From contig CALUTQ010000001.1 of the NCBI GenBank assembly GCA_944323745.1, forward strand, positions 248,001-312,000: 64,000 nucleotides of DNA, given 5' to 3'. Position 1 is the stretch's first letter. The number at the start of each line of letters is the position of its first letter. Below the pieces are notes generated by a model. The model searched no databases, was not told where the DNA came from, and saw only the letters and a list, made by a program, of their open reading frames with translations. The position numbers and the translations under genes are program-made. This DNA is from Candidatus Avelusimicrobium pullarium. GTDB lineage: Bacteria; Elusimicrobiota; Elusimicrobia; Elusimicrobiales; Elusimicrobiaceae. Positions 42,890 to 43,430 of the stretch are shown piece by piece.

Positions 42890-42961
42890 AGGTGCGGGCG
42901 GGAATCGAACCCGCGAATATGAGTTTTGCAGACTCACGCCTTACCACTTGGCCACCGCACC
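42890..42961 (-). tRNA. tRNA-Cys (anticodon GCA)
   Basis: On the (-) strand, GGTGCGG (42961-42955) pairs with CCGCACC, discriminator U73 as expected for Cys. Anticodon stem TGAGT/ACTCA holds the loop CTGCAAA. T arm GCGGG-TTCGATT-CCCGC. CCA is not encoded, unlike tRNA-Val and tRNA-Trp here. Confidence 0.96.
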
Positions 42962-43068
42962 GGCAAATTTTGGTAAAAATATTATAGCAAAAAAAAGGCC
43001 GTTTCCAAAACGTCGGCATTTTCTCCGTCGGAAAAAACCGCTTTTCAACGTTTTTTAAAAAATAGGTC

Positions 43069-43097
43069 TTGAAAAACAGCCGAATCTGTTTTATACT
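43069..43097 (+). promoter_or_regulatory. Strong sigma-70-type promoter of a candidate small RNA
   Basis: TTGAAA (43069-43074), 17-base spacer, TATACT (43092-43097). No open frame follows; a structured stretch and a terminator do. Confidence 0.72.
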
Positions 43098-43103
43098 CTG
43101 TGT

Positions 43104-43216
43104 AAGGGAGCACCACTTAGAGAACCTATTTTAGGGTTATGCCCCGTAAAAGGGTTACGGGCTCCCCTTTTCTTTTTCCCTTGGCATCCGCCTTGCAAGA
43201 GGCGGATGCTTTTTTT
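43104..43216 (+). ncRNA. Candidate structured small RNA, about 113 nt, unidentified
   Basis: From the predicted start (about 43104) a closing stem pairs AAGGGAGC (43104-43111) with GCTCCCCTT (43161-43169, one bulged C). It encloses two hairpins: AACCTA-TTT-TAGGGTT and CCCGTAA-AAGGG-TTACGGG (7 perfect pairs), a three-way junction. A U-rich linker and a strong terminator (GCATCCGCCT/AGGCGGATGC, 43184-43209, then Ts) complete it. It does not match the SRP RNA GGAAG apical motif, 6S, tmRNA, RNase P RNA or any riboswitch I know. In the 398-base gap between tRNA-Cys and tRNA-Gly it is the only gene-like element apart from the tRNA promoter. Confidence 0.5.
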
Positions 43217-43313
43217 GTCGGAAATATATACGTAATGCCTGCCGATTTTGTATAATAAATAAAAGTTCTGCTCTTTTGGCTGTTTTAAATTACGCTGCGC
43301 GGCATATGGCCGC

Positions 43314-43359: not shown

Positions 43360-43430
43360 GCGGGCGTAGTTCAATGGTAGAACGTCAGCCTTCCAAGCTG
43401 GTCACGTGGGTTCGATTCCCATCGCCCGCT
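43360..43430 (+). tRNA. tRNA-Gly (anticodon TCC)
   Basis: GCGGGCG (43360-43366) pairs with CGCCCGC (43423-43429). Anticodon stem CAGC/GCTG around the CTTCCAA loop. T arm GTGGG-TTCGATT-CCCAT. CCA is not encoded. First of two tRNAs ahead of tuf. Confidence 0.95.

Follow-up and report, generated by a model that had tools for sequence, protein, structure and literature searches.

The described RNAs that offer the closest comparison with the present locus are 6S RNA, whose long helix is opened by a bubble at its centre and which binds RNA polymerase by mimicking an open promoter and serves as template for product RNA, and OmrA/B, which are enterobacterial Hfq-dependent pairing RNAs. Within the open-access part of the literature in PubMed Central no described small RNA of Elusimicrobiota was found, and in the main text of PMC8040213 the word Elusimicro- does not occur. 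The DNA analysed here is a 64-kb stretch (the window) of a 1.6 Mb genome (G000), in which, at positions 43069-43216, a promoter of the sigma-70 type is followed by a compact fold with a three-way junction and then by a terminator. The EF-Tu of the window is most similar, at 88%, to that of named Elusimicrobiaceae/Elusimicrobia metagenome genomes. When the 64-kb window was searched with Rfam 15 only five tRNAs reached the gathering cut-off, and no family did so at the RNA, in agreement with the preliminary description, which had matched it to no known family. Below threshold, the highest-scoring family over the RNA was OmrA-B (RF00079, 43116-43216), with 23.1 bits where 40 are required; 6S RNA (RF00013) gave no match in the window. 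Comparison with related genomes demonstrated the gene, the fold, the promoter and their conservation, and on this basis 43069-43216 almost certainly contains a real gene for a structured RNA. It appears to represent an undescribed small RNA family, the broad kind of which, the stand-alone structured small RNA, is known.

Promoter and fold

The promoter, fold and terminator hairpin occupy the space between tRNA-Cys (42890-42961, reverse strand) and tRNA-Gly (43360-43430, forward strand), and all elements of the RNA gene are on the forward strand. The -35 box TTGAAA (43069-43074) and the -10 box TATACT (43092-43097) are separated by 17 bases, exactly as first described, and this type of promoter was kept throughout the aligned copies, with CTTGA in 56/56 and TAnAnT in 56/56, spaced by 17 (48 copies) or 18 bases (8 copies). 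P1, the closing helix of the fold, starts 6-9 bases downstream of the -10 box, and exactly 8 in 48/56. Abutting the -35 box is AGGTC (43064-43068; family consensus RGGYC), whose two central G are present in 51 and 52 copies, respectively, out of 56, and the combination of AGGTC, CTTGA and TATAMT has exactly one match in the window's own genome. Complementarity of AGGTC to hairpin 1 was seen by eye in some copies only, was absent in others and was treated as chance.

P1 is formed by GGGAGC(A)CC (43106-43114) and GGGCUCCC (43159-43166), and both strands share the same evidence, six of eight pairs being changed on both sides with 97.8% of cells paired. Within P1 lie hairpin 1, AACCU-AUUUUA-GGGUU (43123-43138; 5/5 pairs changed on both sides, 95.5% of cells paired), and hairpin 2, GCCC-CGUAAAA-GGGU (43141-43155; 3/4 pairs changed on both sides), which in its conserved form is GCCC-N7-GGGY. 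The closing stem and the AACCU/GGGUU hairpin of the three-way junction originally proposed were therefore correct, but its CCCGTAA/TTACGGG hairpin was not the conserved form. That 7-bp pairing needs UUACGGG, which among the aligned copies occurs in the window copy only, and it would compete with P1; it was rejected. The weakest point of the fold is the outermost pair of hairpin 2, formed in 31 and absent in 22 of the 53 distinct rows.

Covariation was counted for 17 base pairs in 56 aligned copies (53 distinct rows) and compared with 500 shuffles. In this alignment, which was fitted to a model of the same structure and whose counts lean towards that structure, 14/17 pairs were changed on both sides and 95.2% of cells were standard pairs, compared with 85.8% in the shuffles. 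None of the covariation measures was reached by any shuffle (0/500), and the compensatory changes anticipated in relatives were thus present. As a control, sliding the partners by 1-3 columns reduced paired cells from 95.2% to 33-63%. RNAalifold, run on the same alignment, returned essentially the same three helices with 13/15 pairs compensated.

Folding energy was also assessed. The stretch of 113 nt folded better than 200/200 dinucleotide shuffles (z -4.27), most of this signal being the terminator; 43104-43170, which lacks the terminator, gave a z of -1.84 with 9/200 shuffles equally good, a modest result on one sequence. The single-sequence minimum-energy fold of the window copy was another alternative with one long inner hairpin. 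The presence of two inner hairpins rather than one long hairpin is favoured by the alignment, not by energy.

The sequence of P1 was swapped between copies for covarying alternatives, for example GGGAACGC/GCGUUCCC and AAGAAGGCC/GGCCUUCUU, and the junction strand J1/2 was free to vary, its commonest form being present in only 7/56. Loop 1 was RUUUUA in 25/56 copies and loop 2 occurred in a few related forms (CUUGUAG, CGUAAAR, CGUUAAG). Nearly all bases of the RNA lie in a helix or a tight loop, and no long unpaired stretch was conserved. Mean identity in the 15 closest copies rose from 0.40 in the far upstream flank to 0.64 across the promoter, 0.79 over the RNA and 0.88 within the two-hairpin core, and downstream of the RNA it fell to 0.36, then 0.28. 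A kissing interaction between the loops (UUUUA with UAAAA) would be possible in the near clade; in distant copies loop 2 (UUGUA or similar) was judged by eye not to be complementary, and the interaction was rejected.

Distribution of the RNA

BLAST of 61 genomes yielded nine same-genus homologues at E 2.5e-9 or better, besides the window's own copy, and all nine sit between tRNA-Cys and tRNA-Gly. Covariance models were built in turn from nine copies and then from 30 copies, and a match at E 2e-4 or better was obtained in 55/66 genomes of the window's own genus (labelled g1 in this analysis). Laxer filters added G027 (E 0.005) and G003 (E 0.008), both matches adjoining tRNA-Cys, giving a total of one significant copy in 57/66 genomes; a further match in G021 was at chance level (E 0.96). 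Among the nine misses, seven assemblies had no recognisable tRNA-Cys and the contig of G020 stops inside tRNA-Cys, so that in eight of nine the neighbourhood was unassembled; G017 alone gave no match although its upstream region is assembled. Two features characterise the family as found by model R2: a covarying junction of P1, hairpin 1 and hairpin 2, and a promoter with P1 starting 6-9 bases after it.

Among 24 genomes from the family's five remaining genera, eight of which were covered by the laxer-filter search, no match at E <=1 had tRNA-Cys in the fetched locus, the sole matches at this level being in G067 (E 0.33 and 0.39) and G208 (E 0.92). Across the order, model R2 matched 57/149 genomes at E <=1, of which 55 were same-genus and two (G208 and G057) were without tRNA-Cys in the fetched locus. 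A scan of the phylum with a 20-mer, allowing up to two mismatches, detected 17/294 genomes; 13 show the RNA context, while L117, L125, L126 and L127 do not. Weak matches in L173-L177 (18.8 bits or less, no tRNA-Cys nearby) were dropped, and among mobile elements no match was found in viral contigs (exact 21-mer), phage records or plasmids. The RNA is genus-wide, yet was not found in other genera, and the housekeeping role suggested for it is unproven.

Proposed mode of action

The reading that we prefer, and to which we would give about an even chance, is that of an independently transcribed, single-copy RNA gene of ~70 nt, from a family known to date in a single gut Elusimicrobiaceae genus, whose product acts as a stable RNP. 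RNA polymerase would start within a base or two of P1, the two short hairpins would form inside P1, and the 3' strand of P1 would lead into a U-rich tract that is the probable end of transcription, often with a second terminator as backup. A protein or large complex (ribosome, RNA polymerase) would recognise the junction together with the two semi-conserved loops, namely RUUUUA in hairpin 1 and CUUGUAG, CGUAAAR or CGUUAAG in hairpin 2, and the RNA would titrate, scaffold or modulate whatever is bound. Transcription, the exact ends, the protein partner and the effect are each what we infer from the comparison. A stable RNP seems most likely because the RNA is almost wholly folded, the fold is kept more than the sequence, and no Hfq was found.

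Against the RNP, the near-invariant two-hairpin core in the close clade would also suit base pairing. The gene may encode a trans-acting antisense small RNA, in which the apical loops, or the CCUCCC of an opened P1 3' strand, would pair with mRNA start regions; we regard this as unlikely, although it is the best of the rival explanations. The core is 0.88 identical in the 15 nearest copies while P1 varies, and the C-rich strands (CCCC, CCUC, CCUCCC) could conceivably reach Shine-Dalgarno sequences. However, P1 is replaced by covarying alternatives and long unpaired stretches are not conserved; a check for seeds found variable junction strands and only short semi-conserved hairpin loops, and a seed may lie within a loop. 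Hfq (PF17209) was detected in none of 90/90 genomes of the family by a model that rang in only 5/14 controls, and its absence is compatible with Hfq-independent pairing or other chaperones. An RNA bound by a protein or complex is favoured over an antisense RNA because the bases are held in helices and tight loops, the junction strands vary, and Hfq was not detected.

The 3' end and neighbouring genes

Directly after P1 is a U-rich run (CUUUUCUUUUU, 43167-43177), the probable first site of termination, and P1 was followed by a run of at least four T within 16 bases in 45/56 copies. The strong terminator reported earlier is present as a second hairpin (43183-43210) with a T run, together spanning 43183-43216; a strict scan identified a second hairpin terminator in 38/56 copies, and neither T run nor terminator in only three. 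Because the T run directly follows the closing helix in so many copies, the core RNA probably consists of the three-way junction alone, at ~70 nt rather than the transcript of about 113 nt first envisaged. The spacing of P1 from the -10 box (8 bases, 48/56) and the T run after P1 place the predicted primary RNA, of ~70-75 nt, at 43104-43177. The motif TTATGGG, seemingly recurrent in terminator loops of relatives, occurs four times in the window against 2.97 expected and was discarded as being at chance rate.

The shortness of the RNA and its ending in terminators would suit a DNA or transcription element only, which would terminate transcription or insulate tRNA-Cys from the genes around it and whose RNA would be functionless. 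This is improbable, since the strong promoter was kept in 56/56 copies and the two inner hairpins, which are needless for a terminator, covary.

The RNA was initially placed just before the tRNA-Gly/Thr-tuf unit, and this holds for the window and many relatives, in which it precedes tRNA-Gly by ~190 bases and shares its strand, as would a leader or attenuator acting in cis on the tRNA-Gly/tRNA-Thr/tuf unit. The arrangement is not general, however: at six loci (L154, L156, L158, L162, L190 and L191) the RNA is directed away from tRNA-Gly/Thr/tuf, and at three (L146, L147 and L157) no tRNA-Gly was seen within ~1.5 kb downstream. In the window a promoter-like TTTGCA-N16-TATAAT immediately precedes tRNA-Gly, which also speaks against a leader. 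The rearranged loci largely refute a leader of the tuf unit, which we consider very improbable. With respect to INDEPENDENCE, the RNA lay no more than ~320 bases from tRNA-Cys in 57/57 loci, in varying orientation. Comparison of the loci indicates that the stable neighbour of the RNA is tRNA-Cys, not tuf; tRNA-Cys itself is outside the RNA and is kept in all copies. No protein gene was consistently linked to the RNA. The RNA gene has been rearranged with respect to its neighbours and is therefore independent of them.

Frames of at least 20 aa exist at the RNA, for example one of 38 aa at 43139-43255 that starts from ATGCCCCGT, yet no reading frame is conserved. Most distant copies lack the ATG of the 43139 frame, and in several near copies the frame is interrupted early. 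That the locus is a short coding gene, such as one reading MPRKR... at 43139, is extremely improbable, and the conserved core was rejected as a peptide: the frame stays open over 38 codons in the window and ATGCCCCGTAAAAGGG is read by most of the nearest copies, but the frame ends in differing short tails, other copies have ACG in place of its ATG or have lost it, and conservation tracks base pairs.

Long RNAs of the sister genus

Nine genomes of the sister genus (labelled g12) had a GGGYCTTGACA-N-TATACT/TATTAT-like promoter within ~1.3 kb of tRNA-Cys (loci L237, L205, L247, L239, L243, L246, L240, L241 and L242). The promoter is followed by a 5' domain of 66-74 nt whose closing helix contains GGGC; in most of the nine this domain folds as a three-way junction. 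Beyond it the RNA extends to a length of ~390-580 nt, and at its end lie a Shine-Dalgarno-like stretch, a frame of 8-12 codons and a terminator. The tiny frames read MEENSTSAG, MEDSSSCKSGR, MEASSSIG, MEDNSSMQAGWL and similar, and codon 5 was serine throughout, as TCC in seven and AGT in two. Retention of this serine despite the change of codon hints that the frames are translated. In L236 and L244 (~1500-1730) and in L234 (~1500-1760) the same type of promoter was seen with a frame of six codons (MTKVYN; MSTPVN) before a terminator. The combination of a structured RNA with a tiny frame may therefore recur within Elusimicrobiaceae. Among relatives in the order (family f2, L248-L263), GGGYCTTGACA-N-TATAMT occurs several times per genome in some genomes, often preceding short hairpin-rich stretches without an obvious gene, and in L262 one such promoter precedes a c-di-GMP-I riboswitch.

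Model R3, made from the nine g12 RNAs, found two further matches near tRNA-Cys (L202 and L212). Covariation in g12 was weaker, with 3/13 pairs changed on both sides, a level reached by 64/500 shuffles. The g12 RNA gave no Rfam match at gathering score, and for L204 none below E 0.98. With filters off, R2 gave nothing below E 2.1 on 19 tRNA-Cys loci, and the best match of R3 among 28 loci from the window's genus was at E 0.51, away from the RNA. The g12 RNAs resemble the ~70-nt RNA in their GGGYCTTGACA-type promoter, tRNA-Cys neighbourhood and 5' three-way-junction domain; they differ in being ~390-580 nt long with a tiny frame before the terminator, and in the lack of a reciprocal model match. 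Because neither model finds the other family, common descent is offered only as a hypothesis, from promoter, place and fold.

A more ambitious proposal, which we advance tentatively and think doubtful, is that the 70-nt and the ~390-580-nt RNAs are one gene, the lineage-specific core of an RNP in which the 5' three-way junction would be essential. The g12 lineage would have added a structured body and an 8-12-codon frame that tethers the RNA to translating ribosomes, and the other genus would have cut it back to the junction. If true, the Elusimicrobiaceae, in which no 6S RNA was detected, would have in this gene their own equivalent of a housekeeping regulator that acts on ribosomes or RNA polymerase.

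Comparison with described RNAs

The stable RNP that we favour can be set against both of the described RNAs. OmrA-B differs in its dependence on Hfq, which was not found in the genomes of this family, and its score was far below the cut-off. The model for 6S RNA (RF00013) found none in 90/90 genomes of the family, weak evidence as it rang in only 5/14 controls, and divergent versions of 6S RNA or Hfq may escape both models; the post of 6S RNA in Elusimicrobiaceae may be vacant. The RNA has been kept across the genus despite sequence change, in genomes without detected Hfq or 6S RNA, and its partner would reveal how a small-RNA system looks in a little-studied gut lineage. The family is well supported and its model can be searched at once in metatranscriptomes. 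Like 6S RNA, it is a structured RNA encoded by a stand-alone gene that is present once and has a promoter of its own; unlike 6S RNA, its predicted fold is a three-way junction of ~60 nt in place of the long, centrally bubbled helix.
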